Both the position numbers and the translations under genes were made by a program. 64,000 nucleotides of DNA from an uncultured Methanobrevibacter sp. (GTDB taxonomy: Archaea; Methanobacteriota; Methanobacteria; Methanobacteriales; Methanobacteriaceae), in assembly GCF_902774605.1 (NCBI RefSeq), contig NZ_CACYJE010000001.1:1-64000 (forward strand), in the 5' to 3' direction. Below, in pieces: positions 11,921 to 62,162 of the stretch (position 1 is the stretch's first letter; the number at the start of each line of letters is the position of its first letter). The notes beneath the pieces were generated by a model that was not told the DNA's origin, did no database searches, and saw only the letters and a program-made list of their open reading frames with translations.

Positions 11921-13087
11921 ATGAGCAATATTTTTGAAGACGAACGACTATTCGCAAATCGTCGCAAAAACCATATATTTAAAGATAAAAAACCATTGGA
12001 TCACCGGTTCCTGCCGGACAAGCTGGTTCATAGGGATGATCAAATAAGGAAAATAGCGAAATACTGGGTTGACGTATTGGATGATGTCACACCGTCAAAC
12101 GTAACACTATACGGAAAAACAGGAACAGGAAAAACCGCAGCATCAAAATTCGCACGCGAACAACTCATAGAGGCTGCAAACAATGAAAACATTTTCATAA
12201 AGATAGAATACATCAGATGCACAGACTACACCACAGAATACCAGGTGATAGCCCAATTATGCAACAGGCTGGGCAGGGATGTTCCAAACCGTGGATGGAC
12301 CAAGGCAGAAGTGGTCAAGGCATTCAGGGACCTTTTCAGAACCAATGCATTCGGAAAAAAACTGCACCTGATAGTCATACTAGATGAAATCGACATACTG
12401 CTGTCCAAGGATGGGGACGGAATACTCTACACATTAACAAGAACAGACAATGTTGCAGTACTGTCAATCAGTAATTACCTTGACTTTAAAAACCTGATCA
12501 CTCCAAGGGTAACAAGCAGTCTCAACGACAAGGAAATAATATTCCCTCCTTACGGTGCAGGACAATTGTCAGACATACTCACCGAAAGGGCAATGTTGTC
12601 ATTCCATGACGACATACTAAACGATGATGTAATACCGTTATGCTCAGCGATGGCCGCCAAGGAAGAAGGTGATGCAAGATACGCTCTAGACCTATTGAAA
12701 AACGCTGGTGAACTCGCATTCGATGAGAATTCAGAAAAAGTAACAAGCGAGCATGTCATAAGGGCTAAAGACAGGATTGAACACAATAAGATTACTGAAA
12801 TAATCTCAACACTTCCTCTTCAGCAGCAAAGGGTTCTCGAAGCAATCCTATTGCTGACCAAGAAGGGCGATGAAATCACTTCAGGAAAACTCTATGAGGA
12901 ATACACTGAAATATCCAAAAAGGATTCAGTCACCTATAGAAGAATATTCGACTTCATCAATGAACTGGAACTCTTGGGAATAATATCAACCAATACCATT
13001 TCACGCGGACGTGGAAGGGGAAGAACAAACATTATCAAATTGCAGTGCGATGAGCAATTGTTGGAAACAGCCTTATACTCTATTTAG
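11921..13087 (+). CDS. cdc6: Origin initiator Orc1/Cdc6 (Cdc6-1 type)
   Basis: 388-residue AAA+ initiator that binds origin boxes and loads MCM helicase. Walker A GKTGTGKT at about residues 64-72, Walker B VILDEID at ~150, sensor 1 LSISN, sensor 2 [10 protein letters not shown], and a C-terminal winged helix (residues ~290-388) with a basic RGRGRGRTN hairpin wing. Length is normal. It lies directly beside the boxed origin, and the first ATG follows AAGGGAGATT. Its last eight bases overlap the convergent pyrB gene. Confidence 0.95.
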
Positions 13088-29473: not shown

Positions 29474-30268
29474 ATGAGAAAAGCGGTTGTATTTGATAAC
29501 TCCGGAACATTGATTGAAAGGTATAGGGTAATTAAGGATGTTGTCAACGGTAACATTTTCACAGACATCAATTCCCTAGATTTGATTGATCAGGCTGATG
29601 CGCTGGCTTTGGTTGTGCTTCAATTCAACACCAATAAGCTATTGAAGTTGGATGAGGACACCTTGATTTCAGATGTTATTAAACAGTTCAATATTGATTT
29701 CGACATCAGCTTTTCAACAAAGCAGGTTTCAAAATCTGAAGTAAAGGAGATTCTTTACAATGAGACATCATCAACCATTGCAGACATCACCGATGGATTT
29801 GGGATACTGAGGGAAAAGATCCCCCACATGGAACTGTGCAACGGGTCAGCTCTCATCGTTGATATGGACTTGGGCGTTGTGGCATACACAATCACTTCAG
29901 CGGGCAAGTTCTTCCCCCGCGTGTTTGAAACTGTTGAAACGTTGAAATCACGCGGCATGGAGATTTATATCGCTTCAGGAGACCGTAAGGGTGCCATTAA
30001 TAGGTTAGCTAACATGCTTGATATTCCAGAGGACAATGCCTACGGCTCAGTCTCCACCCGTGAAAAGTGTGAAGTGGTGTCCATCCTGCAGGATGCCGGT
30101 TTTAAGGTAATGATGGTCGGCGACGGGTTGAATGATCTTTTGGCATTCAAAAAGGCTGATGTGAGTGTCTTGACCATTGAGCAGCAGGAGGAGGTTTCCC
30201 CTAAGATGATGGATAAGACCGATTATGTTATTGAGGATATTTTTGAAGTAACTGAGATTGACTTTTAA
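29474..30268 (+). CDS. HAD-family phosphatase resembling the P-type ATPase P domain
   Basis: 264 residues. AVVFDNSGTLIERYR carries the nucleophile Asp, with Ser where DxD phosphatases have the second Asp, as in the soluble P-type ATPase-like HAD group of methanogens. IYIASGDRKGAINRLANML and MMVGDGLNDLLAFKKADVSV are motifs II-IV in P-type ATPase style. No membrane helices are present. The substrate is unknown. ATG at 29474 is preferred, with GGTGGATGAT upstream; an ATG at 29465 is in frame. A cluster of ATAAGTT repeats follows its stop. Confidence 0.75.
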   Translation: MRKAVVFDNSGTLIERYRVIKDVVNGNIFTDINSLDLIDQADALALVVLQFNTNKLLKLDEDTLISDVIKQFNIDFDISFSTKQVSKSEVKEILYNETSSTIADITDGFGILREKIPHMELCNGSALIVDMDLGVVAYTITSAGKFFPRVFETVETLKSRGMEIYIASGDRKGAINRLANMLDIPEDNAYGSVSTREKCEVVSILQDAGFKVMMVGDGLNDLLAFKKADVSVLTIEQQEEVSPKMMDKTDYVIEDIFEVTEIDF

Positions 30269-30295
30269 TAGCTATTTTTTTTTTGTTTTGATTTT

Positions 30296-30430
30296 TCACT
30301 TATAACTTATAAGTGACTGTTATTTTTTTATAAGTTATAAGTTATAACTTATGGCCTTAATGATATGATGATAAGTTATAAGTTATAAGTAAGTATTAAT
30401 GAAAAAATAAATGAGAAGTTATAAGTTATC
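30296..30430. repeat. ATAAGTT/AACTTAT cluster with the 16-bp palindrome (site 1)
   Basis: Between two converging genes there are seven exact ATAAGTT or AACTTAT heptamers (30304, 30330, 30337, 30346, 30371, 30378, 30421), several in head-to-tail runs with a 7-base period. The perfect 16-bp palindrome ATAAGTTATAACTTAT is at 30337-30352. The last element covers the final codons of the TIM-barrel gene. The same palindrome recurs at 41670 and 61665. A centromere-like or segregation-protein site is proposed; a convergent bidirectional terminator is the plain alternative. Confidence 0.8.
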
Positions 30431-31132
30431 AATGACTTTCTTGCTTTTAAGGATATTGTCAAAGTTGTTCAATTCAATGATGGCGGTATCAATCCTTTTA
30501 AGCAGATTCAGGTCCAGTGTGCCGTCACCCAATGGGATGTGGGAATCCTTAACCCCGTCGTTATCGTTAAGGTGGCAGTAACTTATGTTTTTAAGCGATA
30601 GCATTTCCTCAAGGTTTCCGCAGGTGTTCCCGTGGCCGGTGTCAATGGTCAGGCTGCATCCGGTGGCCTCCTGTATCATCTCGATTTCCTCGACAGTGTT
30701 TCCCAGAAACTTCTGCCTCATGGGCATGTTTTCAACTGATATCTCCACGTTGGTGTTGTCGATGATTTCCCCTATGCTTTCTATTGCCATCTCCAATGCC
30801 CATTTTCTAAGGTGTGGCTCATTGCGACCTATTATCCCAGGATGCACGGTTATGGTGTTGGCTCCTATTTTTTCAGCGTATTGTCCGCAGTGTATCATTT
30901 GCCTTACGCTTTCGGCCCTTATCCCCTTGTTTATGCTTGCTATATTTATGTCCACGGTTGCCGCATGCATGCGAATGTCCAGTCCGCAGTCTATGAATGG
31001 GGTGTTGTCCTTATCGTATAATGGGTCTTCCGCCAGTATCTCGATTATTTCAAAGTCATGTTTTCTTGCCAGGTTGATGATGTCCTCGGTTGGTTCCATG
31101 AACAGCGCCAGTGTTGTAAATCCTAGTTTCAT
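30419..31132 (-). CDS. Sugar phosphate isomerase/epimerase-like TIM barrel
   Basis: 237 residues of the xylose isomerase-like/AP endonuclease 2 superfamily. Metal-ligand positions are seen in order: IRMHAATVDI, TVHPGIIG, VEISVENMPM (Glu), LTIDTGHGN (Asp-His), CHLNDNDG and DSHIPLGDGTLD. It may be an isomerase or epimerase or an endonuclease IV relative; the short length favours the former. The start ATG follows TATTTAAAT closely, so it may be leaderless. Divergent from padR across 67 bases. Confidence 0.72.
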   Translation of the reverse strand: MKLGFTTLALFMEPTEDIINLARKHDFEIIEILAEDPLYDKDNTPFIDCGLDIRMHAATVDINIASINKGIRAESVRQMIHCGQYAEKIGANTITVHPGIIGRNEPHLRKWALEMAIESIGEIIDNTNVEISVENMPMRQKFLGNTVEEIEMIQEATGCSLTIDTGHGNTCGNLEEMLSLKNISYCHLNDNDGVKDSHIPLGDGTLDLNLLKRIDTAIIELNNFDNILKSKKVIDNL

Positions 31133-41636: not shown

Positions 41637-42269
41637 TCCTTCATTTATTTTTTTTAGACCAATTTAGTTATAAGTTATAACTTATAACTTTTAACAATTT
41701 TTTTTAAACAATTGATACTCCCTGGTTTTAGCCTAGTGTGGCATAATGCTTTACATTTGAAACATATCCCTATAATTTTTAGAATGATAAGACTTTCAGT
41801 TTTCATGTTGATTAAATTGATGATTTGATTGATTATATCATGCTTTCATTTTTGCCTCTTCAAGTTGCTTGATCATGCATTAAATGATTTTACTTATAAC
41901 TTATAACTTGTAACTTATATCATATAACCTATAACTTGCAAGTGCTAACGAATAACTTATATGTGAAAACGAATAATTTATAAGATAGAAGTTATAAAAT
42001 ATAACTTATTTGTTAAAAGTTAGTTATGATAAGTTATTTCTTAAAACTTATTTTTTATAATTTAGAAGTTTTAACTTAAAACTTATTTCCTATCCCTTAG
42101 AAGTTAGAACTGATAAGTTATTTCCTTTAAGTTTTAATTTAAAAGAGATAACTTAATCCTTTTAACTTATACTGAATAACTTAAAAGTTATTCTTTAGAA
42201 CTTTGAGTTTTTAAGTTATAATTCATAACTGATAACTTAAAACTTATCAGATATAAGGAGAATTCTTTA
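41637..42269. repeat. Dense AACTTAT/ATAAGTT array upstream of parA (site 2, centromere candidate)
   Basis: About 600 bases hold twelve exact heptamers (41670, 41679, 41898, 41912, 41954, 42003, 42029, 42045, 42080, 42113, 42164, 42241) and many one-base variants. A perfect 24-bp palindrome, AGTTATAAGTTA plus its complement, is at 41666-41689 and contains the 16-bp palindrome at 41670-41685. A TTACATTTGAAAC origin-type box is at 41751-41763. The last element ends 22 bases before the parA ATG, so a protein bound here could also repress parA. GGAGAA before the ATG is the ribosome site. Confidence 0.8.
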
Positions 42270-43049
42270 ATGAGTGAAGTAATAGCGGTGATGAATCAAA
42301 AAGGAGGCTGCGGTAAAACAACAACCGTTGTGAATACTGCAACATCCTTAGCAGTAATGGGTAAATCTGTTTTGGTCGTGGACATGGATCCACAAGCCAA
42401 TGCCACAACAAGTTTTGGCATCGACAAGACTAAGATAGAAAATACAATCTATGATGCTATCATAGGGGATATAAATGTTAAAAAAGCAACAATTCCTACG
42501 TTTATAAAAAATTTGTTTATTATCCCAAGTAATATATCCCTCAGTGGTGCAGGAATGGAGTTATCTAAACGCGAAAATTACCACATAATACTAAAAGAAA
42601 CTCTTAAAGATGTAGTCCCATTATTCGACTACATATTCATTGATTTGCCTCCTTCACTAGGTGTCATAACAGTCAATGCATTAGTAGCTTCCGATAGCGT
42701 ACTCATACCTATCCAAGCTGAGTATTATGCCCTGGAAGGAGTTGCCGATTTAATTAATACAATAAAACTAGTCGAAAACAGACTCAGAAGCCCAACACCC
42801 ATCAAAGGAATTCTCCTAACCCTATTTGATAAAAGAACAAGGCTAAGCAAAGACGTCCACAAGGAATTGAAAAACTACTTCGGAGAATCAGACCTTCTCT
42901 TCAAGACAATCATTCCAAGAAACATCAGGCTGGCTGAAGCGCCAAGTTTCGGAAAGCCATGTCTCATATATGATCCGGACAGCACCGGAACAAAAGCATA
43001 TCTAAAACTGGCTAAGGAAATCCTCAAACGAGACGGAGAGGATGTATAA
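42270..43049 (+). CDS. parA: ParA/Soj-type partition ATPase
   Basis: 259 residues. Deviant Walker A KGGCGKTTT with the signature Lys (about residues 11-19), VLVVDMDPQANAT, Walker B FIDLPPSLG, and FDKRTRLSKDV and PRNIRLAEAPSFGKP as in chromosomal Soj/ParA. No N-terminal helix-turn-helix, so it is the small type (like type Ib or chromosomal ParA) that leaves DNA-site binding to a partner. It overlaps the next gene by one base (TAATG). The upstream repeat array and partner gene suggest chromosome or origin segregation; MinD is excluded by lack of a C-terminal membrane helix. Confidence 0.9.
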   Translation: MSEVIAVMNQKGGCGKTTTVVNTATSLAVMGKSVLVVDMDPQANATTSFGIDKTKIENTIYDAIIGDINVKKATIPTFIKNLFIIPSNISLSGAGMELSKRENYHIILKETLKDVVPLFDYIFIDLPPSLGVITVNALVASDSVLIPIQAEYYALEGVADLINTIKLVENRLRSPTPIKGILLTLFDKRTRLSKDVHKELKNYFGESDLLFKTIIPRNIRLAEAPSFGKPCLIYDPDSTGTKAYLKLAKEILKRDGEDV

Positions 43050-43609
43050 TGGCTAGGAAAGGACTTGGAAAAGGATTGGATTCCTTAATTCCCAACATCT
43101 ATGATGAAAACTTTGACAGCAACTCCCCGCAATCCCTGGAGGACATGCTGAAAGGCGAAGAGGAAGAGACTGTTGAGGAAGTCATAGAAGACATTGAATC
43201 CAAAAAAGAAGATGAGCAAGTAAAAGAAGAGGAAACTCCAGAGGAAGAGTCCCCTTCAGATGATGAGGAAGAAGAGGTTGAGGAAAATGTTCCAGAAGAA
43301 GAGGAGCCGAAAGAGGAAAGTCAAGATGATGATGACCCATCCAAAGACATACCTGGCGATAAAGATAGCGAAGAAACTGTACAAACATCACAAGAAATCA
43401 AAATCCAACAGGAACATGTAGATGAAGTAAAGGAAATTGTGGATAAAAACCCAAGAATCACATTATGGTCTTCAAGATCATCTGCAGTGTTCAGGTATTT
43501 GAGAAAAACCGAACCTGAATTCAGCATATCCAAGGAAGCATCCGTCTTGATTGAAGAGGCTGTCGCCAAGAAATACCCTGAGATTTGGGCATTGTTTGAA
43601 GACTTATAA
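43049..43609 (+). CDS. Non-canonical ParB-like partner with only the ParB N-terminal peptide
   Basis: 186 residues. MARKGLGKGLDSLIP is the N-terminal box of bacterial ParB that contacts ParA and triggers its ATPase. Residues ~30-125 are a strongly acidic low-complexity linker (EEEETVEEVIED, SPSDDEEEEVEE). Residues ~130-186 form a small folded domain (ITLWSSRSSAVFRYLRKTEP, then ISKEASVLIEEAVAKKYPEI). The ParB CTPase and helix-turn-helix domains are absent. The C-terminal domain has a helix-loop-helix pattern loosely like helices 1-2 of an archaeal histone; that is only my inference. Translationally coupled to parA. Confidence 0.7.
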   Translation: MARKGLGKGLDSLIPNIYDENFDSNSPQSLEDMLKGEEEETVEEVIEDIESKKEDEQVKEEETPEEESPSDDEEEEVEENVPEEEEPKEESQDDDDPSKDIPGDKDSEETVQTSQEIKIQQEHVDEVKEIVDKNPRITLWSSRSSAVFRYLRKTEPEFSISKEASVLIEEAVAKKYPEIWALFEDL

Positions 43610-43643
43610 TATATTATACTCTCTTTTTTTGACAATATATTTT

Positions 43644-43692
43644 TTACACTTGAAAATATACTGACACTATTTTTACACTTGAAACCATCCTC
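43644..43692 (+). repeat. Two origin recognition boxes after the parA operon
   Basis: TTACACTTGAAAATATACTG starts at 43644 and TTACACTTGAAACCATCCTC at 43673, direct repeats 29 bases apart. The second keeps the C-rich tail seen in oriC. They lie 35-65 bases after the partner-gene stop and are about 32 kb from oriC. Confidence 0.7.
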
Positions 43693-44921: not shown

Positions 44922-45539
44922 ATAATAATATATATGTGATTTTTACAATTAAAATATATTGATTTATCTGATATGTTTTGTATACTATTAAACTTAGAGT
45001 GTATTTTTTTTGGATGTATATTTTATCGTGTTGATCGTTTTTTGGATAAATTTAAGTGATGAGGTATCTAATATGATATTTTCGTGTTACTTTTTTTATT
45101 CTATTTTTTACAATATATTTTTTCTTATCATTTTTCAGTGTTCGGGAATTTTTAGAATATATTCAGTTTTGATTAAGCGTCCTTGAATTTTTTTGAATGT
45201 TATTTTTATGTCAATGTTATATTTGAATGTTGTTAAATATTTTTTGTATTAGTAAATTGTATAATTTTTTCGTGATAATTATTCAATAATGAAATATTAA
45301 GTTAATTTTTTTGTTTAATCGTATAAGTTTATATATGATAACTTAGTTATGTGTAAATTAACTGCTGGAATTTATAATTTTAGTGGTTGTATAATTGCAT
45401 AATATTAATATTATGTAACTAAAATAGGCGTTCACGTATAAATATTCACAATATTATATACAATTGATAAAAACTATTATGACTATTTATTGTGCTTTTC
45501 TATTTTATTGATAAAAAAATTTTAAAAAGAGGTATTAAA
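44922..45539. other. 618-base AT-rich gap upstream of the tandem adhesins
   Basis: No gene recognised. The stretch is T-rich on the plus strand. CATAATATTAATATTATG at 45398-45415 is a perfect 18-bp palindrome about 125 bases before the adhesin start and may be an operator. TATA-like ATATTATATAC lies near 45451-45461. The long upstream region suggests complex control of adhesin expression. Confidence 0.4.
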
Positions 45540-48500
45540 ATGAAAGTAATACACAAGATTTTTGTTATTGTTTTGCTACTTTCTTTAATATTTTCCGTAA
45601 GTGCAGTCGCTGCACAGGACATCGAGGAAAATATGACTTTCGAGCAAGGCAATATGGGGGAAGTTTCAGATGAAACGCTAAATGCACCTGCTGAGGAAAC
45701 TCTGGAGGTTAACTCTGTCGAAGAAGAATCTTCAGTTAACGCTGCTGAAGATGATGATGTAATTTTAAAAGCTAGTGAAAAAGATCAATTGGCTGCTGAT
45801 GAGCCAGCTAATTTTTCTGTAATCAGTAAAGCAATTGACAATGCTAAAAACGGTGACACTATCTATTTGAACGGTTCAAATTATGTTTCTAATGGAGATC
45901 GTATTTATTTTCAGCAAAAAAACTTAACTATAGTTGGTGGATCTAGTTTAGGTGATGGAAAATATGCAACATTAGATGCTAGAGGATTGAGTTCTATATT
46001 GTCAATTTCAAATAATGAAAATACTTATTTTTATTATGATTATTATGACAGTGATTGGAATTGTGCTGTTACATTGGATTCAATAATATTTACTAATGCT
46101 GATGTGGCTATTAGAGCGGCATGTCATTTAAACATTAATAACTGTTATTTTATTAACAATTCTCAGGCAATATTATTTAAAGATTGTATACGGTTTGAAG
46201 ATTATTATTATTACGGTGGATATTCCTACTCTCCTATTTATAATTTAAATGTTTTAAATTCATATTTTATAAACAATACTCGTCGATATGGTAGCATTGT
46301 AGATGTAACTAATTCGCCTAAAACTCATACGACTAGTATGGATAATCCTAGGGACTATGGTAAAAAGACTTTCAGGAACTGTTTATTTGAAAACAACACT
46401 GCTAATTATGGTGGTGCGATTTCTTTAGGATATGGTGCAAATATTCAGGACTGTACATTTATTGGAAATTCTGCTCATTTTGGTGGTGCCATATATCATA
46501 CTCAATCAACTTATTACAGTCCTAAATATGGAAAATATGTTGTAACAAATGTAATTAATAATTCTATTTTTATTAATAACAGTGCTGTTGAAGGGGGAGC
46601 TATCTATGGAGATTTTATCAATATCACAGGTTCCAAATTCATTGACAATGTTGCTACTTTCTATGGTGGAGCATTGAATATTAAAAGTTTCATGACAATC
46701 AATATTTCAAACAATGAATTTACAAATAACTATGCTCCTTATTATAATTCACATTCAATGTTTATTACCACAATAGAGGAATTAAATTCAGTGAATGTTG
46801 ATTTCAGTGAAAATATCGTAAACAGTGATAAAACTGAAATTTACTTTGACAAGCCTGTAACAGGATTGTACACCTATATTTTGGATGGTACTACAGTCCA
46901 GTTCTGTGAAGGTAATATTAAAATATATGCTTTAGTAACTGATGATGAAGGAAATAGGATATCTACAAGAGAGTTCAGATTCCTTGTAGGTGATGAGGAA
47001 TTTGTAACAAGAGTATTGGACAGTGTTGCTGAAATCGATTATCAGGCAACAATTGCAAATGACAACGGCAAGATTGTAAGTGTAAATACCACTGATTATA
47101 AAAATGTTTACACCGGTAAATTGGAGATTATTCCATTTTCAGTTGTTTTCGATTTTGAAGATTACACAGGAGCTATGGGTACAGCAGTTAAGGTTCCCGT
47201 TTATGTGAATGATGCATCGGGCCATCCATTGGAAAAAACTATAATAGCCAGTTATAACGGTCATGAAAAAGAATTAGTTTCATATAATGGTATAGCGCAT
47301 GTGTTAATCAGTTTACCGCTTGAAAAAACCAGTTTTAATTTAGCTGTCGAATGTGATGGCGAAGTTAAAGTGCGTAAGGTTTATGTAATGGATCCTCATG
47401 ACGATACTGCAATTGTAATTGACATGGCGGAAAATGAAAACGGATACATTGGAAGAACAATTACACTTCCTATCACAGTACATGATGGTAAAGGAAACGG
47501 ATTAATCGGAGATATAAGTGTTTCTTATAATGGAAAAACAAGAATAATGCCATTAATTGATGGTCAGGCTGATGTATTGGTTAGTTTGCCAGTTTATGAA
47601 ACTTCATTTGATTTAAGCGTATCATTTAAAGGAACCAGTAAGATTTGTACAATAAATGTCATTGACCCGGTTTCAGAAATTGAAGCAAGCATTGATTTGC
47701 CACATAATGTAACTGGAAACATTGGTGAAGGAATCATCATTCCAGTTAGTGTCGTTGACCAGGATGAAAATCCATTAACAGGGGATATCATTATTTCATA
47801 TAATGACCAGGAAATAACAAGAAGTTTAAATACAACCGGACAATATGGAATAGCAATATCCTTGCCGCTTCATGAAACTTCATTTGAATTGACAGTTAAT
47901 TATAAGGGAAATATTAAGTCATGCCTTGTTTATGTGATTAATCCAAATAAAATTACTCAAATTCTAATCAATGTAAATGATACTTACACTTCCGAACCAG
48001 GTAAAAGTATAACAATTCCGGTCAGTGTAGTTGACCAAAATGGAAATCCTTTGTCTGGTGAGATTTTCATTGAATATAATGACCATGAGAAAAATGCAAC
48101 ATTGACTGATGGTAAGGCTGATATAGTAATAGGATTACCAGTCACTGAAACTTCATTTGAAGTCGCAATCTCTTATAATGGACACACAAAAATTACTCAA
48201 GTAAATGTAGTTGATAACAAGCCTCATGTAAATTCAATAATTAATTTGCCTGAAACTAAAACCGAGAACATAGGAAAAACTATTGTGATACCGGTTTATG
48301 TTACAGATGAAAACGGAAACCACATGCAGGGTGATGTGGTAATTTATTATAATAATAAGGAAACAACTCAAACACTAGTGAATGGACATACCAATATTAT
48401 TATAAGCTCACAACTTCATCCAACATCATTTGAAGTGACTGTAGCTTATAAAGATAAACAGGCACATTGCCTCGTTGATGTTATTGATCCAAATCCTGTC

Positions 48501-50177
48501 AAACCTGTAATTACCATGCCTGAAAGTGAATCTGGGCATGTTGGAAAAACAATCATTATTCCGGTTAAAGTATTTGATGAAAAAGGAAAACCTTTGCAGG
48601 GAGAAATTGGCATATACTATGAAGGTAAGGAATTTACAGAAACTTTACAGAATGGCCTTGCTGACGTTGCTGTAATCTTGCCTGACACTCCAACCACATT
48701 CAATTTAACAATTGCTTATGGCGAAACATCTAAAGATTGCTTAATCACAGTTAAAAATGCATCTGATACTAGTGAAACCAATGATACTACAGTAGTAATC
48801 GAAATTGAAGATGATATAACCGGTTCTGTTGGAAAAACAAAGATTATTCCAATATTTGTTCATGATGGAAAAGGCAACCCATTAAATGGTGAATTAATTG
48901 TCACATACAATAATAATGAAAGGGAAATTAATTTGAAAAATGGAAAAGCTAACATTGTTTTAACTTTGCCTTCAAATCCAACAACCTTTGATTTAACTAT
49001 TATTTATGGAGAAATCTTTAAGATTACAAGTGTCATTGTAGTTGATTCAAATAACCCTATGGGGGACTTGACTGAAATCACTTCAAACGGAACATCCATT
49101 GTAATTCCATTCCCAAAAGATGCTACTGGAAATGTTACCGTTAACATTAACGGTAAAGAGTATAATGGAACTGTAGTCAATGGTGAAGTGATTGTAAACA
49201 TTGATGATTTGCCTGATGGTGAATATGGTGCAGTAGTTTCCTATTCAGGTGATGGAAACTATTCCGCCTCTGAAAAAACCGTCACAATTATCATTAAGGA
49301 TAGTGGTGTCGTTGATTCAAAACACCCGTTAGCCAATATCACTGATGTGGAATCTAATGGTGATGGATTATTGGTTATTCCATTCCCTAGCGATGCTACA
49401 GGTAATGTGATTGTAACCATTAACGGTAAAAATTACACTGGCACAATTGTTGATGGTAAAGTGGTTTTAGACATAAAAGACTTGCCTGCCGGAAATTACA
49501 CATCAATTATATATTATTCAGGGGATGGAAACTACACCAATTCCACAAAAACTATTGTGGTCATTAAAGATAATACTGCAGTCAGTCCAGATAATCCAAT
49601 GGGTAATGTTACTGAAACCGAATCTAAGGATGGTTCTATCAGTATTCCGTTCCCTAATGATGCAAGTGGAAATGTTGTTGTTAACATTGACGGCAAATAC
49701 TATAATGGTAAGGTTATTGATGGAAAAGTAGTTTTAGATGTTAAAGACTTGCCAAACGGTAATTATAATGCTAATGTTTACTATTTGGGTGGCGGAAATT
49801 ATTCAGCATCAGCCAGGACTATCATGTTCATTATTAAAGAGACTAATAATAACAATCAGCAAAATACTCCTGTCAAACCGCCTGTTGTAAATAAAAAAGC
49901 ATCTAAAATCACAGCTAAAAAGAAAACCTTTAAAAGAGCTAAGAAGGTTAAAAAATATTCAATTACCTTAAAATCCGGCAAAACTCCAATTAAAAAAGTT
50001 AAAGTTACAATTAAAATAGGAAAGAAAACTTACAAGGCTAAAACTAACAATAAAGGTAAAGCAACCTTTAAGATTAAAAAATTAACCAAAAAAGGTAAAT
50101 ATAAGGCTGTAATTAAGTTTAAAGGTGATAAAACATACAAAGCGTCAATTAAGAAGGTTAAAATCACAATAGTTTGA
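45540..50177 (+). CDS. Adhesin-like protein A (beta-helix, Big-type repeats, basic C terminus)
   Basis: 1545 residues. Signal peptide MKVIHKIFVIVLLLSLIFSV. Residues ~90-440 are a right-handed beta-helix with GGAI and INNSA rungs. Then about seven ~93-residue Ig-like repeats, each with a GxIIxIPVxVxDxxGxPLxG core and an LPxxxTSFxLxVxY end (about 540-1170), three shorter repeats with PMGDLTEI/PLANITDV starts, a polar NNNNQQN linker, and a Lys-rich terminal domain (KASKITAKKKTFKRAKK). GAGGT precedes the ATG by six bases. Paralogous to the next gene; probably exported and wall-bound. Confidence 0.87.
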   Translation: MKVIHKIFVIVLLLSLIFSVSAVAAQDIEENMTFEQGNMGEVSDETLNAPAEETLEVNSVEEESSVNAAEDDDVILKASEKDQLAADEPANFSVISKAIDNAKNGDTIYLNGSNYVSNGDRIYFQQKNLTIVGGSSLGDGKYATLDARGLSSILSISNNENTYFYYDYYDSDWNCAVTLDSIIFTNADVAIRAACHLNINNCYFINNSQAILFKDCIRFEDYYYYGGYSYSPIYNLNVLNSYFINNTRRYGSIVDVTNSPKTHTTSMDNPRDYGKKTFRNCLFENNTANYGGAISLGYGANIQDCTFIGNSAHFGGAIYHTQSTYYSPKYGKYVVTNVINNSIFINNSAVEGGAIYGDFINITGSKFIDNVATFYGGALNIKSFMTINISNNEFTNNYAPYYNSHSMFITTIEELNSVNVDFSENIVNSDKTEIYFDKPVTGLYTYILDGTTVQFCEGNIKIYALVTDDEGNRISTREFRFLVGDEEFVTRVLDSVAEIDYQATIANDNGKIVSVNTTDYKNVYTGKLEIIPFSVVFDFEDYTGAMGTAVKVPVYVNDASGHPLEKTIIASYNGHEKELVSYNGIAHVLISLPLEKTSFNLAVECDGEVKVRKVYVMDPHDDTAIVIDMAENENGYIGRTITLPITVHDGKGNGLIGDISVSYNGKTRIMPLIDGQADVLVSLPVYETSFDLSVSFKGTSKICTINVIDPVSEIEASIDLPHNVTGNIGEGIIIPVSVVDQDENPLTGDIIISYNDQEITRSLNTTGQYGIAISLPLHETSFELTVNYKGNIKSCLVYVINPNKITQILINVNDTYTSEPGKSITIPVSVVDQNGNPLSGEIFIEYNDHEKNATLTDGKADIVIGLPVTETSFEVAISYNGHTKITQVNVVDNKPHVNSIINLPETKTENIGKTIVIPVYVTDENGNHMQGDVVIYYNNKETTQTLVNGHTNIIISSQLHPTSFEVTVAYKDKQAHCLVDVIDPNPVKPVITMPESESGHVGKTIIIPVKVFDEKGKPLQGEIGIYYEGKEFTETLQNGLADVAVILPDTPTTFNLTIAYGETSKDCLITVKNASDTSETNDTTVVIEIEDDITGSVGKTKIIPIFVHDGKGNPLNGELIVTYNNNEREINLKNGKANIVLTLPSNPTTFDLTIIYGEIFKITSVIVVDSNNPMGDLTEITSNGTSIVIPFPKDATGNVTVNINGKEYNGTVVNGEVIVNIDDLPDGEYGAVVSYSGDGNYSASEKTVTIIIKDSGVVDSKHPLANITDVESNGDGLLVIPFPSDATGNVIVTINGKNYTGTIVDGKVVLDIKDLPAGNYTSIIYYSGDGNYTNSTKTIVVIKDNTAVSPDNPMGNVTETESKDGSISIPFPNDASGNVVVNIDGKYYNGKVIDGKVVLDVKDLPNGNYNANVYYLGGGNYSASARTIMFIIKETNNNNQQNTPVKPPVVNKKASKITAKKKTFKRAKKVKKYSITLKSGKTPIKKVKVTIKIGKKTYKAKTNNKGKATFKIKKLTKKGKYKAVIKFKGDKTYKASIKKVKITIV

Positions 50178-50209
50178 TAAATTAATAAAGATTAAAAGAG
50201 GTAATTAAA

Positions 50210-53200
50210 ATGAAAGTTATTCATAAATATTTGGTTATTGCTTTGTTACTTTCTTTAATATTTTCAGTTAGTGCCGTGGCTGCACAGAAAGATATGACTT
50301 TCGAGCAAAGCGATATAAATGATGTTGATACTGAAATATTAACCGTGTCTTCTGAAGACCCAGAGATTAATGCTGTTGAAGTGGAATCTTCAGTTATTAG
50401 TGCTGAAGATAATGAAATACTGCAGTCTAGTGGGGAAGACCAATTGGCTGCAGGTGAAGGTAGTTTTTCAGATGTTCAATCTAAAATCGATGGAGCCATA
50501 AATGGCAGCACTATATATTTGGATGGGAAAACATATCTTGGTAATGGGAAAAATATAGAAATTAAGAAGAATATAACAATTATTGGTGGATCACAATCCA
50601 ATCCTGAAGAATTGGCAACATTGGATGCACAAAGTTTGTCCTCTATTATGCATGTCTTCAATAAAACCAATGTAGTTTTAAAATCAATTAAATTTATAAA
50701 TGGTAAAAGTACAGGTGCAGGAGCAGCTATTAATGCTCAATCTAATCTAACAATTGAAGATTGTCAATTCATCAACAACACTGCTCATGATGGTGGAGCT
50801 TTAAATTTGGCTAGTCATATTTATCATATAGTTCGTCATGATGACCCTACTTGGGAGTCATATGGTGATATTTATGAGTATGAAAAATGGTATCATGATG
50901 AAATCGAAAATGGTTATTATTATTATGAGGGATATTATCCTTCAAGTCCATATTATCATCCTGAAAAATATTATTATGGGGATCATAGCAGAGATTTATA
51001 TATCTGTGAACATTTTAAATATAATATAAATAATTGTTATTTCCTTTTAAATAATGCTACAGACAAGGGTGGAGCCATTAGTATACTTACTTTCGGTATA
51101 AATATTCCTAATATAGAAAACTGTATTTTCATAAATAACACTGCTCGAGAGGGTGGTGCTATTTATTCAGTTGAAAATTATTTATTGGAACATTCGGATT
51201 TTATTAATAATTCTGCTACTAATGATGGTGGTGCAATTTATTCAAATCATATCCATGAATTTGAAGACCAGAATCTTGAAGACTTTTCATATGGGCAGAG
51301 TGTGCGTGTAAGCTATTCTTCAAAAATAAGTGATTGTAAATTCACTGATAATTCTGCTACTAATGAGGGAGGAGCAATCAGAGGGTACCTTCGTGATGTA
51401 TATTATTCTATTTTCACCAATAACAAAGCAAAAAAGGGTGGAGCAGTCTGGTCTACAGTATCAATATACTATTCAAATTTCACTAGAAATTCCGCTACTA
51501 ACGATGGTGGTGCAGTATATCATGGTTCTTTAAATTATTGTAATTTTATTGATAACACTGCAGTTAGAGGTGGTGCAGGATACTCTACCAGCGCACGTAA
51601 CAGTAATTTTACAAACAATGTTGCAACTGAAGGAGGAGCACTTTATTCAGATTGGGTCTCTGGATGTAATTTTAATTCGAATAGTGCAGATTATGGTGGA
51701 GGAATTTATTATGATACTCGTTATGGGGGGGAGGTTTCAAACAATAATTTCAAAAATAATGTAGCATTGGACGCTTCCACTGCCATTTATATTTCAACTA
51801 TCTATTCTTTTGATTATATAAAAGGCAATAATTTCAACAGTGATAAAACTGAAATTGTAATTAAAGATGCCATTGATTACAATGGTTTTAACATTGTAAT
51901 TTTGGACAATCAAACTCTCAATGTCTGTGAAGGTGAAATGAAAATATATGCTACGATATCTAATAATGAAGGAGTTAAATTTTCATTTGAGGAATTCATA
52001 TTCGTTGTTGGGTCTCATGAAATTGTAACCAAAGTTGTTGACAATTATGCAGAGGTAATGTTCAACGCCACCCCTGAAGATGACGGATCAGTCATTGGTG
52101 TAAAAACCACAAGTGCAACCCAGGCTAAAATTTCAACTGCATTCTTAAATGTCTATCCATATGTTGTATATATTGACTTTGACGATGCTCACGGGTATTT
52201 GGGTGAAGTTATTCAGGTACCAGTGTATGTTCATGATTCTACAGGTCATCCGGTTTCTGGAAACATTTTCATAAATTATAATGGCAATCATAAGACACTT
52301 CCTCTAGACAATGGTAGGGCAACTGTTAGCATGAGTCTACCTAATACTAAACGTACCTTGGATTTAATTGTTGAATATGATGATGTAATCGAAATTCGCA
52401 AAGTAAACGTGCTTGACCCGAATGAACCTGCTGCGGTTATTATTGAAATGCCTGAAAGTGAAAATGAATATGTCGGAAGAACAATTACTGTTCCTGTAAA
52501 TATCCATGATGGAAACGGCACTCAATTAAAAGGTGACATTCATATATTCTATAATGGTATTGAAGAAACAATCACATTAAACAACGGTAAGGCAGATATT
52601 GTAATAGCATTGCCGGTTTATGAAACCACTTTCGATTTAGGCGTTTCCTATTGGGGATATAATGCTATTTGCAAAATCAATGTTCATGATTATACTGTTG
52701 ATACATTTGCTCAAATTGATTTAGCTCACAGCGCTTCCGGAAACATTAATGAAACCATTAAAATACCTGTGAAGGTAGTTGATGAGAATGGCCAACCGTT
52801 AACCGGTGATATTCATGTTTCATATTATGGAAAAGAAACAACCATATCCCTAAATTCCACTGGTGAAGCGGAAATAAGCGTTGCATTGCCAGACTATGAA
52901 ACATCATTTGAATTGATTGTTAATTATAATGGAAATATTAAATCATGCATTGTCGAATCAGTTATTCCTACAGTCCATGAATCCGTTGTAATCAATGTTA
53001 ATGAATCATATATTGGTTATTTGGGTGAAACATTGACAGTTCCTGTAAAAGTCACTGATAAGGATGGCAATCCAATAACTGGTGATATCCATGTTTCATA
53101 TAATGGCCATGACATGACTTTAACTCTTGTTGATGGTGAAGCCAATATTGAAATGGCCTTGCCGGCTGCTGAAACTTCATTTGAATTGGTAATTTCATAT

Positions 53201-55216
53201 AAGGGACATATGGAAACTTCATTAATCAATGTAGTTTATCGCGGCGCTCATATTGAAGCGGTAATTACTTTGCCTAATGAAAAAACCGAAAACATAGGCA
53301 AGGTTATTCAAATTCCTGTTAAAGTAACTGACAGTGAAGGCAATCCTTTGCAAGGCGATGTGGCAGTTTATTATGCCGGCAATGAATTTACTCAAACATT
53401 GGTTAACGGTTCAACAGCTATCGTAATTGACCCTATAAATTACCAAACATCCTTTGAGCTAACCGTAGCTTATCATGCTCAAATGGCGCACTGTTTCGTA
53501 AATGTGGTTGATCCGAATAGTCAAACTGTTGATGCTGTCATAACATTGCCTGTGGCTGAATCAGGTCATGTCGGAAAAACCATTGTTATTCCAATTAGCG
53601 TATATGACAGTGAAGGTAATCCTTTAAGCGGAGACATAAGCATTTATTACATTGGTTTTGAAACAACAGAAACATTACACAACGGTAACGCTAGCATTGT
53701 CATGCTTTTGCCGGATGAGCCAACATCCTACAATTTAACTGTAATGTATAAGGGTGTTTCTAAAAACTGTCTAATCACAGTTAAAGATGCATCTGATGAT
53801 AGTGAAACCAATGACACTGAAGTGGTCATTGAATTAAATGATGAATATATCGGCCACGCCGGTAAACTGCTCAATATTCCAGTCAGTGTTCATGACGGCA
53901 AGGGCAATGCTTTGGAAGGTAAAATTACCATATTGTACAATCATCAAAAGATTGAACATACATTGAATAATGGCGCCACCAATATTTTAATCGCATTGCC
54001 AGCTAATCCGACAACCTTTGAATTGGCTGTTGAATATGAGGGCTTGACTAAAATAGCAACAATCAGGGTTATTGATTCAAGCAATCCTATGGGTGACATC
54101 ACTGAAGTAACCACCAATGGTACTGGATCAATTGTCATCCCAATGCCTAGCGATGCTACTGGCGAAGTTAATGTAACAATCGCTGGTAAAGTCTATCCTG
54201 GCAAGATTGTTGACGGTAAAATCATTGTAAACATCACTGATTTGCCAAACGGTACCTACACAGCCACTGTCAACTATTCAGGTGATGAAAACTATTCAGC
54301 TTCACAGAAAGTCATTACTATAATCATTAAAGACAGTACAGTGGAAGACCCTAACAGTCCATTGGCTAATGTAACTGAAGCTAAGACCAACGGTGACGGA
54401 ACCGTTGAAATTCCTTTCCCTAAGGATGCTACAGGGGATGTCATTGTAACTATCGACGGTAAAAACTACACTGGTAAAATTATTGATGGCAAGGTTGTTT
54501 TGGATATTGCTGATTTGCCTGCTGGAAACTACACATCAATCGTCTATTATCCTGGTGACGGAAACTATTCAAGCACAATCAAAACTATTGTGATAGTCAA
54601 GGATGCTTCTTCAGCTAGCCCGACCAATCCTATGGGCGACACTACTCAGGCCCAAAGCAACGATGACGGATCCATCAATATTCCTTTCCCTAAGGATGCT
54701 ACAGGTGAAGTATTGGTTGAAATTGACGGTCAAATCTACACTGGCAGGATAGTTGACGGTAAGGTTGTTTTGGATGTTGGAAACATGCCTGCAGGTAACC
54801 ATAACGCTAATGTTTATTACTTTGGGGACGGCAAGTATGGTGCTTCTTCCAGAACAATGGTATTTATTATCAAGGAAACCACCAACAACAATAACAATCA
54901 GAACACTCCTGTAAAACCGCCGGCCGCTGCTAAGAAGGCTTCCAAGATTACAGCTAAGAAGAAAACCTTCAAAAAATCATTAAAGGTTAAAAAATACTCC
55001 ATTACCTTGAAATCAGGTAAGACTCCAATCAAGAAAGTGCAGGTCACAATCAAGGTTGGCAAAAAGACTTACAAGGCTAAAACAAACGCTAAAGGTAAGG
55101 CAACCTTCAAAATCAATAAATTGACCAAGAAGGGCAAGTACAATGCTGTAATCAAGTTCAAGGGCAACAAGTCCTATAAGGCAACAAGCAAGAAAGTTAA
55201 AATAACCATTAAATAG
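50210..55216 (+). CDS. Adhesin-like protein B (tandem paralogue)
   Basis: 1652 or more residues from the ATG at 50210 (1668 in all). Same plan as its neighbour: near-identical signal peptide (MKVIHKYLVIALLLSLIFSV), beta-helix at about 100-560 with repeated NNSATNDGGAIY-type rungs, seven ~93-residue Ig-like repeats, three short PMGDITEV-type repeats and the Lys-rich C-terminal domain. It differs by a Tyr/His-rich insert at about residues 215-265 (NGYYYYEGYYPSSP) in the helix. AAGAGGT precedes the ATG. The 32-base gap after adhesin A suggests joint transcription. A G7 tract lies at 51725. Confidence 0.87.
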   Translation: MKVIHKYLVIALLLSLIFSVSAVAAQKDMTFEQSDINDVDTEILTVSSEDPEINAVEVESSVISAEDNEILQSSGEDQLAAGEGSFSDVQSKIDGAINGSTIYLDGKTYLGNGKNIEIKKNITIIGGSQSNPEELATLDAQSLSSIMHVFNKTNVVLKSIKFINGKSTGAGAAINAQSNLTIEDCQFINNTAHDGGALNLASHIYHIVRHDDPTWESYGDIYEYEKWYHDEIENGYYYYEGYYPSSPYYHPEKYYYGDHSRDLYICEHFKYNINNCYFLLNNATDKGGAISILTFGINIPNIENCIFINNTAREGGAIYSVENYLLEHSDFINNSATNDGGAIYSNHIHEFEDQNLEDFSYGQSVRVSYSSKISDCKFTDNSATNEGGAIRGYLRDVYYSIFTNNKAKKGGAVWSTVSIYYSNFTRNSATNDGGAVYHGSLNYCNFIDNTAVRGGAGYSTSARNSNFTNNVATEGGALYSDWVSGCNFNSNSADYGGGIYYDTRYGGEVSNNNFKNNVALDASTAIYISTIYSFDYIKGNNFNSDKTEIVIKDAIDYNGFNIVILDNQTLNVCEGEMKIYATISNNEGVKFSFEEFIFVVGSHEIVTKVVDNYAEVMFNATPEDDGSVIGVKTTSATQAKISTAFLNVYPYVVYIDFDDAHGYLGEVIQVPVYVHDSTGHPVSGNIFINYNGNHKTLPLDNGRATVSMSLPNTKRTLDLIVEYDDVIEIRKVNVLDPNEPAAVIIEMPESENEYVGRTITVPVNIHDGNGTQLKGDIHIFYNGIEETITLNNGKADIVIALPVYETTFDLGVSYWGYNAICKINVHDYTVDTFAQIDLAHSASGNINETIKIPVKVVDENGQPLTGDIHVSYYGKETTISLNSTGEAEISVALPDYETSFELIVNYNGNIKSCIVESVIPTVHESVVINVNESYIGYLGETLTVPVKVTDKDGNPITGDIHVSYNGHDMTLTLVDGEANIEMALPAAETSFELVISYKGHMETSLINVVYRGAHIEAVITLPNEKTENIGKVIQIPVKVTDSEGNPLQGDVAVYYAGNEFTQTLVNGSTAIVIDPINYQTSFELTVAYHAQMAHCFVNVVDPNSQTVDAVITLPVAESGHVGKTIVIPISVYDSEGNPLSGDISIYYIGFETTETLHNGNASIVMLLPDEPTSYNLTVMYKGVSKNCLITVKDASDDSETNDTEVVIELNDEYIGHAGKLLNIPVSVHDGKGNALEGKITILYNHQKIEHTLNNGATNILIALPANPTTFELAVEYEGLTKIATIRVIDSSNPMGDITEVTTNGTGSIVIPMPSDATGEVNVTIAGKVYPGKIVDGKIIVNITDLPNGTYTATVNYSGDENYSASQKVITIIIKDSTVEDPNSPLANVTEAKTNGDGTVEIPFPKDATGDVIVTIDGKNYTGKIIDGKVVLDIADLPAGNYTSIVYYPGDGNYSSTIKTIVIVKDASSASPTNPMGDTTQAQSNDDGSINIPFPKDATGEVLVEIDGQIYTGRIVDGKVVLDVGNMPAGNHNANVYYFGDGKYGASSRTMVFIIKETTNNNNNQNTPVKPPAAAKKASKITAKKKTFKKSLKVKKYSITLKSGKTPIKKVQVTIKVGKKTYKAKTNAKGKATFKINKLTKKGKYNAVIKFKGNKSYKATSKKVKITIK
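51725..51731 (+). repeat. G7 homopolymer in adhesin B
   Basis: Seven consecutive G bases in an otherwise very AT-rich stretch, coding the two glycines of RYGGEV. Slippage by one base would truncate the protein about one third of the way along. Confidence 0.6.
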
Positions 55217-60956: not shown

Positions 60957-62162
60957 ATGAAAATGGATGAATACGATATAGCTATTATTGGCGGAGGTCC
61001 TGCAGGAATCATGGCTGCCATTGCGGCAAGCAGGACTTCCTCTAATGTAATATTGCTTGAAAAGAACCCCTCACTAGGCCGTAAGCTATTGCTGACCGGC
61101 GGGGGAAGATGCAACATTACCAATGACAAGCCAATAAAACAGCTATTAACTTTTTTTAACAATAAGAACTTTTTGAAGCACTCTTTTTTCACTTTTACAA
61201 ATGAGGATCTCTACTCATTGTTTGATTTGGAATTCATGACTGAGGAAAACAACAGGGTTTTCCCGAAATCTGGAAAGTCAGGTGATATCTTAAAAGGTTT
61301 ATGTGATAAGTTGGATGGTGTAAGTATAACTTATAACTTTGAAGTTAAAAGCATCAAGCCCGGTTTTGTTATAAATGATAAGTTAAAAGCCGAAAAGGTC
61401 ATCATAGCCACAGGCGGCGTGACCTATCCGCAGACTGGATGCAGTCTCGACAACTACAAATTGACTTCACAGCCATTGACGGATATAAAATACGGATTGG
61501 CACCGCTATTGACTGAAAGGGACCTGTCAGGAATTGCCGGTGTGACGCTTCATGATGTGGTTATAAGTTATAAGAAGCACAGGGTTCAGGGCAATGTGCT
61601 GTTTTCCCATGTCGGTTTGACCGGGCCTGGAATCATCAACCTGAGCAATGAGATATCCGAAAGTATAAGTTATAACTTATTAGAAGATGACCCTGAAATC
61701 GACCTTGAAATAGCCATCGACCTGTGTCCCGAGTTGACACGTGAGGAACTGCATCAAAAGTTCAATAGGGACTTTCAATCCAAGGGAAAGACAAAGCTCA
61801 AGAATTACCTGAAGCTCTACCTAACAAACAGCTTCATAGACTATTTCTTAGATGAAATCAGCATTGACGGCGAGACACAACTCTCCAATGTCAACAGGAA
61901 AAGCAGGAACAGATTGGTTGAAAACCTGAAAAGATTCGCTTTCAAGATAACAGGCTTCAATGACAAGTTGGCCAAGGTCACTGTTGGAGGCGTTGATCTG
62001 AAATACGTCAACCCCAAAACCATGGAATCGACATTGACTCCGGGACTCTACTTTGCTGGGGAGGTATTGGATGTTCACGGGCCGACCGGAGGGTATAATT
62101 TAAAGATTGCCTTTTCAACAGGCTACCTTGCCGGATTGTCAGCCAGTGGAAAAGCAGTGTAG
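60957..62162 (+). CDS. HI0933-like NAD(P)/FAD-dependent oxidoreductase
   Basis: 401 residues. YDIAIIGGGPAGIMAAIAA is the FAD motif, NPSLGRKLLLTGGGRCNITN the family signature, and LYFAGEVLDVHGPTGGYNLK the late FAD loop. The family (HI0933/YhiN) has an unclear physiological role. It directly abuts aspS. Notably the coding region contains six exact ATAAGTT/AACTTAT heptamers at 61306-61680 and the 16-bp palindrome, each giving I-S/T-Y-N/K codons. Confidence 0.88.
   Translation: MKMDEYDIAIIGGGPAGIMAAIAASRTSSNVILLEKNPSLGRKLLLTGGGRCNITNDKPIKQLLTFFNNKNFLKHSFFTFTNEDLYSLFDLEFMTEENNRVFPKSGKSGDILKGLCDKLDGVSITYNFEVKSIKPGFVINDKLKAEKVIIATGGVTYPQTGCSLDNYKLTSQPLTDIKYGLAPLLTERDLSGIAGVTLHDVVISYKKHRVQGNVLFSHVGLTGPGIINLSNEISESISYNLLEDDPEIDLEIAIDLCPELTREELHQKFNRDFQSKGKTKLKNYLKLYLTNSFIDYFLDEISIDGETQLSNVNRKSRNRLVENLKRFAFKITGFNDKLAKVTVGGVDLKYVNPKTMESTLTPGLYFAGEVLDVHGPTGGYNLKIAFSTGYLAGLSASGKAV
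61306..61680. repeat. ATAAGTT/AACTTAT cluster inside a coding gene (site 3)
   Basis: Heptamers at 61306, 61328, 61378, 61563, 61665 and 61674; the exact 16-bp palindrome ATAAGTTATAACTTAT is at 61665-61680, coding the SISYNL segment. This third copy inside a gene argues against a terminator role and for a DNA-binding site, as bacterial parS sites often lie in genes. Confidence 0.7.

Follow-up and report, generated by a model that had tools for sequence, protein, structure and literature searches.

Introduction

The site that SegB of Saccharolobus solfataricus recognises, TCTAGASTCTAGA, is a palindrome of 13 bp with S at its centre and with halves that repeat at 7 bp (PMC12284271). Most of the sites of this SegB are reported to lie within coding sequence. 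The protein wraps DNA in a left-handed helix, as does the omega protein of plasmid pSM19035 (PMC9178275), a system in which parS is made of heptads and at least four contiguous heptads are required for efficient ParA activation (PMC9499535). SegAB has already been reported in Euryarchaeota (PMC5120986, PMC12284271). The published SegB motif was derived from Thermoproteota, and a 2025 study found only degenerate matches to it in Thermococcus sibiricus, none of them near segAB, and supposed a different sequence there (PMC12284271). The mark that defines a centromere on archaeal chromosomes is listed as an open question (PMC5120986). In bacteria, the N-terminal peptide of ParB suffices to bind ParA and to stimulate its ATPase (PMC12462528).

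Here we describe a segAB locus in a 64,000-nucleotide stretch of DNA from an uncultured Methanobrevibacter sp., a gut methanogen (contig NZ_CACYJE010000001.1, positions 1 to 64,000; hereafter the window). The class of system, SegAB, is already known; the new part is the DNA, that is, a heptad motif and the arrays that it forms. We found no earlier mention in the open-access literature of TAASTTA as a euryarchaeal SegB site, of its co-occurrence with SegB, of long Methanobrevibacter arrays or of a ParB-type peptide on euryarchaeal SegB, although subscription journals may differ.

Results

The segA and segB genes overlap by one base

A first-pass annotation of this DNA had proposed a candidate partition system in which a small-type ParA gene overlaps a gene for a 186-residue partner. 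Both genes are present as described: segA (42270..43049, + strand) encodes 259 aa, segB (43049..43609, + strand) encodes 186 aa, and the two share a single base (TAATG). SegA is a Walker-type ParA ATPase according to its KGGCGKTT motif, within a deviant Walker A of sequence NQKGGCGKTT, and to domain and PDB searches (Pfam AAA_31, E 1.8e-62). It is Soj-like, being much nearer to bacterial ParA/Soj (PDB 8ray, E 8.4e-72) than to SegA of S. solfataricus (7dut, E 8.1e-17). In the window segA lies directly upstream of segB; in the other loci read the pair is adjacent, in some cases with gaps of 30-190 bp. The neighbourhood conservation that the annotation had suggested looking for in Methanobacteriales was seen in the loci read, where the partner adjoins ParA, and it extends to Thermococci.

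The gene preceding segA in the window is tryptophan synthase beta-like, unlike in several Methanobacteriales lineages (L118-L125, L114-L116, L092, L093), where segA is preceded by a gene with the common C-terminus MPFRxLPLP...SERINF, which we take to be threonyl-tRNA synthetase-like. Downstream of segAB, the window carries a tandem pair of very large adhesin-like repeat ORFs (45492-55216; 1561 and 1668 aa). A run of N interrupts the segB gene in the records of two loci (L064 and L111), and a contig labelled Bacilli bacterium (L042) has a Methanobrevibacter-type segAB and is most likely mis-binned.

The partner of SegA carries a SegB DNA-binding domain

The partner had been described as a protein with an acidic linker and a short C-terminal domain of unknown kind, in which the CTPase and helix-turn-helix of ParB are missing. 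The acidic linker is there, and searches of Pfam and NCBIfam returned neither a ParB N/CTPase domain nor a helix-turn-helix for the partner, nor indeed a SegB model; the ParB domain (PF02195) was absent or below cut-off in all 18 Methanobacteriales-class genomes searched. The C-terminal domain, on the other hand, can be named. A profile built from 33 relatives of the partner had two significant matches in the PDB, Sulfolobus solfataricus SegB alone (7duv, E 2.8e-12) and with DNA (7dv2, E 1.1e-11), over 67-73 columns, and the corresponding ribbon-helix-helix domain is the C-terminal 55 residues. These last 55 residues are strongly conserved among the relatives, while the linker is hypervariable and an LGxGLxxLI-type N-terminal peptide is kept. 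The conserved domain (43415..43606, + strand) reads NPRITLWSxRSxAVxRYLRKTxPEFSISxEASxLIxEAVxxKYPEIW, with 18 invariant columns in the alignment.

Fold prediction, which the annotation had recommended along with a search of this domain, also puts SegB first: Foldseek ranks 7duv and 7dv2 at the top for the AlphaFold model of the domain, with weak scores (E 0.4-0.5). These low scores probably reflect the dependence of the ribbon strand on dimer formation; AlphaFold gives the isolated monomer without a beta strand, and that strand is expected only in the dimer. Since the C-terminal domain matches SegB, the partner is, by homology, SegB and the gene pair a euryarchaeal SegAB system.

Apart from SegB, the matches of the partner profile among PDB chains were weak histone matches, with no omega among them. 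A histone fold was rejected for the C-terminal domain, the matches to H2B being poor (E 0.09-0.7), confined to 31-33 residues and ten orders of magnitude below SegB; weak scattered matches to Rap1a and DUF5800 were disregarded.

SegB begins with a ParB-type peptide

The annotation was also correct in seeing a ParB-type peptide at the start of a protein that is not ParB: the partner begins with MARKGLGKGLDSLIP. The segment MARKGLGKGLDSLIPN (43049..43096, + strand) is a candidate SegA-activating peptide, of the LGxGLxxLI type and conserved in relatives. The ParB-type peptide of this SegB is GLGKGLDSLIP, and pattern matching found the same pattern in the ParB proteins encoded beside the closest bacterial ParAs (GLGKGLGALIP and alike). 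Used alone as a PDB query, the peptide gave no match, the query being too short. As this pattern is the one that triggers ParA in bacteria, euryarchaeal SegB resembles an archaeal DNA-binding domain that carries the ParA-activating tip of ParB. Together with the ParA ATPase, a peptide of this type on a non-ParB protein supports a ParA partition system of the kind that had been proposed.

A heptad array extends up to segA

Upstream of ParA, the annotation had placed a 600-bp array of AACTTAT/ATAAGTT sites. The repeats are real, with 28 AACTT/AAGTT pentamers in 41637-42269 vs. 5.0 ± 2.0 in dinucleotide shuffles (maximum 12, n=1000). The length did not hold, however: the core array spans only 371 bp (41890..42260), about 190 bp of non-repeat sequence lies before it, and a short array of about 4 heptads stands apart in a register of its own (TTAGTTA TAAGTTA TAACTTA TAACTTT; 41664..41695, above the shuffle maximum in a PWM scan). 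Nor is the repeat unit the 16-bp palindrome that had been proposed; it is a 7-bp palindromic heptad, TAASTTA, whose strict 7-bp phase had been overlooked.

The core array, a candidate centromere, consists of 53 contiguous heptads in one register. At most one mismatch to TAASTTA is found in 29 of the 53 (0.6 expected), vs. a single such heptad in the other six phases of 41890-42260 taken together. The in-phase score is 206 (shuffle maximum 11), all 24 pentamers between 41898 and 42245 fall in the same phase modulo 7, and the raw sequence shows autocorrelation with z 8-9.5 at lags 7, 14, 21, 28 and 35 and none at other lags. No comparable region was found elsewhere in the 64 kb by a period scan of the whole window. 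The published motif TCTAGASTCTAGA does not occur in the segAB promoter region of the window, which has TAASTTA heptads instead; the euryarchaeal 13-mer TTATAASTTATAA matches it in length, symmetry and 7-bp repeat.

Heptads accompany segAB in Methanobacteriales and Thermococci

The number of in-phase heptads before segA varies widely, being mostly 20-60 and up to 81 in Methanobrevibacter and allied genera, 17 and 7 in two Methanovirga, 8-11 in Methanothermobacter-type families, and 2-5, right at the segA promoter, in Methanobacterium-like genomes and Thermococci, the latter having 3-5. The promoter heptad signal was not above shuffles in Methanosphaera L092, and one genome (G049) has no array at segA and six triple-heptad sites 31-94 kb from segB. 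No heptad arrays were found before bacterial parA in 13 loci. The repeats thus accompany the gene pair in both groups; their absence from all relatives would, in the annotation's view, have counted against its reading.

Genome-wide site counts were obtained from pattern searches and scans of stretches; the strict pattern AASTTNNAASTTNNAASTT is its own reverse complement, and the reversed pattern served as control. Among 81 Thermococci-class genomes, triple-heptad sites were present in 9/9 with SegB vs. 1/72 without (Fisher p 4e-11, or 1e-9 when the ninth, weak SegB is counted as absent), where the nine are probably related and stand for fewer than nine independent events. The eight genomes with a strong SegB match have 5-10 sites each and the ninth has 1. 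The sites also cluster: in five Thermococci, 15/27 lie within 100 kb of segB (2.8 expected), and in three Methanothermobacter, 13/17 lie within 50 kb (1.0 expected).

These data bear on whether the array might be a replication-origin element or a plain AT-rich repeat with no role in segregation. Its GC content of 0.22 and its place in the half of the map that holds the origin would fit such an idea. Yet the register holds for 371 bp although the heptad units have diverged, the same heptad is carried by Methanothermobacter at 50% GC and by Thermococci, and orc1 is 31 kb off, which together make either reading highly improbable.

Satellite sites and distance to the origin marker

Two further places in the window hold heptad sites, both detected by PWM scan. 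Several intergenic groups of 2-4 heptads lie at 30268..30440 (above the shuffle maximum; pattern match at 30332), and four small groups lie at 61320..61690 within ORF 60957-62162 (pattern match at 61328), where upkeep of the sites may constrain the protein encoded. A 200-kb scan around segAB in another genome (G034) gave the array alone and no satellites, and a 200-kb distal control gave none; satellites are thus not general in Methanobrevibacter.

The origin marker orc1/cdc6 (11921..13087, + strand; TIGR02928, E 7.3e-120) is 31 kb from segAB in the window. The corresponding distance is 9-54 kb in 15/18 genomes and 200-310 kb in the other three (G038, G049 and G141), some of the genome sizes being rounded. 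In genome G000 (C11:27093-27219 and C11:21320-22357), a pair of identical triple-heptad sites is found some 5 kb from its second Orc1/Cdc6 gene, and G010 and G038 have heptad sites with similar orc1/cdc6 neighbours.

This proximity of some sites to orc1/cdc6 copies (G000 C11, G010, G038) is what one would expect if another protein, be it Orc1/Cdc6, a histone or an unknown regulator, bound the repeats and SegB attached through it. Orc1/Cdc6 and histones are general in Thermococci, however, whereas the sites there track the presence of SegB. SegB moreover has a DNA-binding domain of its own, and a 7-bp register suits a ribbon-helix-helix protein. We consider an intermediary of this sort quite unlikely; of the two links between partner and repeats that the annotation had envisaged, the ribbon-helix-helix homology favours the one through the partner's own C-terminal domain.

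The same wider distribution can be set against the notion of a mere operator, at which SegB or SegA would repress the segAB promoter while the true centromere lay elsewhere or was of another kind. The array stops 9 bp short of the segA start codon, overlapping the segA ribosome-binding site, and Thermococci and Methanobacterium-like genomes have just 2-5 heptads, at the promoter, as would suit an operator. But 53-81 heptads far exceed operator need, and like sites are found far from segA, both intergenic and coding, clustered around segAB. In omega systems, besides, the same heptads are operator and parS at once. An operator and nothing else is therefore an unlikely reading of the array.

Lastly, heptad-array parS sites with a ribbon-helix-helix ParB are known on plasmids such as pSM19035 (PMC9499535), and the locus could on this ground be taken for a mobile-element or plasmid-type partition cassette within the chromosome. 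Its conservation contradicts this: in a phylum sample that includes many MAGs, segB was found in 136/152 genomes (85/91 of good quality), nearly always once, with orc1 mostly at a similar distance and a fixed gene order. A cassette is scarcely credible in the face of these data.

Discussion

The best account of these observations, and one that we hold to be very probably right, is a chromosomal SegAB system of Methanobrevibacter with a heptad-array centromere, a SegB filament bearing ParB-like peptides, and SegA-driven movement of the origin. It is supported by the homology of the proteins, the conserved peptide, the common register of the heptads and their conservation among archaea, and by the co-occurrence of the sites with SegB and their clustering near segAB and orc1. 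TAASTTA is the candidate site bound by SegB, and the register, conservation and co-occurrence of the repeats are consistent with the annotation's view of them as a likely centromere.

SegB dimers would bind each TAASTTA heptad by their ribbon-helix-helix domains and stack on the array in register, forming a helical nucleoprotein filament; by analogy with omega and with S. solfataricus SegB, 53 heptads would carry a continuous one. The acidic linkers would let this filament show many ParB-type N-terminal peptides, which would capture nucleoid-bound SegA-ATP dimers and trigger the SegA ATPase, so that the usual ParA diffusion-ratchet would carry along the array and the nearby replication origin. 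Given that the array reaches into the ribosome-binding site of segA, SegB probably represses its own operon as well. Stimulation of the ATPase by the SegB peptide, origin movement and autoregulation are all proposed here on the model of related systems.

More broadly, we think it reasonably likely that TAASTTA is the ancestral euryarchaeal SegB centromere code. Small clusters of sites around segAB and the origin, as in Thermococci, Methanothermobacter and the G049 lineage, would have been gathered into one array of 20-80 units beside segA in Methanobrevibacter and its relatives, to be read by a chimaera of ParB peptide and ribbon-helix-helix domain. TAASTTA would then fit the gap left by the missing euryarchaeal SegB motif in Thermococci and Methanobacteriales, as a candidate centromere sequence, and the locus would offer a clear example of how centromeres evolve between dispersed sites and a single long array. 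A ParB-type peptide fused to an archaeal DNA-binding domain would likewise link ParABS and SegAB.

Comparison with known systems

The AspA-ParB-ParA system of Sulfolobus plasmid pNOB8 is, like the present one, an archaeal ParA-based partition system with a non-canonical centromere binder. It differs in having three proteins and in being plasmid-borne, and AspA has a different DNA-binding fold.

Bacterial ParABS (Soj/Spo0J) shares with this locus a Soj-type ParA (about 50% identical), the peptide LGKGLxxLIP and the clustering of sites near the origin. Unlike ParABS, the system here has no ParB CTPase, no helix-turn-helix and no 16-bp parS, and its DNA-binding part is that of SegB.

ParA(delta)/ParB(omega)-parS of pSM19035 is similar in its ribbon-helix-helix ParB, its contiguous 7-bp heptad parS (53 heptads here) and its small ParA. 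The omega heptad is WATCACW, in runs of 7-10, whereas the heptad here is a different one with far more units; the system here is also chromosomal and origin-proximal, and its N-terminal peptide is of the chromosomal ParB type.

SegAB of S. solfataricus differs in its site (TCTAGASTCTAGA there, TTATAASTTATAA here), while the very long contiguous heptad array, the bacterial Soj-like SegA (7dut 8e-17 vs. bacterial ParA 8e-72), and the long acidic linker and ParB-type peptide of SegB, a peptide compared among euryarchaeal SegB only, set the present locus apart. With SegAB of S. solfataricus and of other archaea it nonetheless has in common a ParA-type ATPase gene overlapping segB and the same ribbon-helix-helix domain and, as in S. 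solfataricus, sites lie upstream of segA, with further sites elsewhere, some of them in genes.
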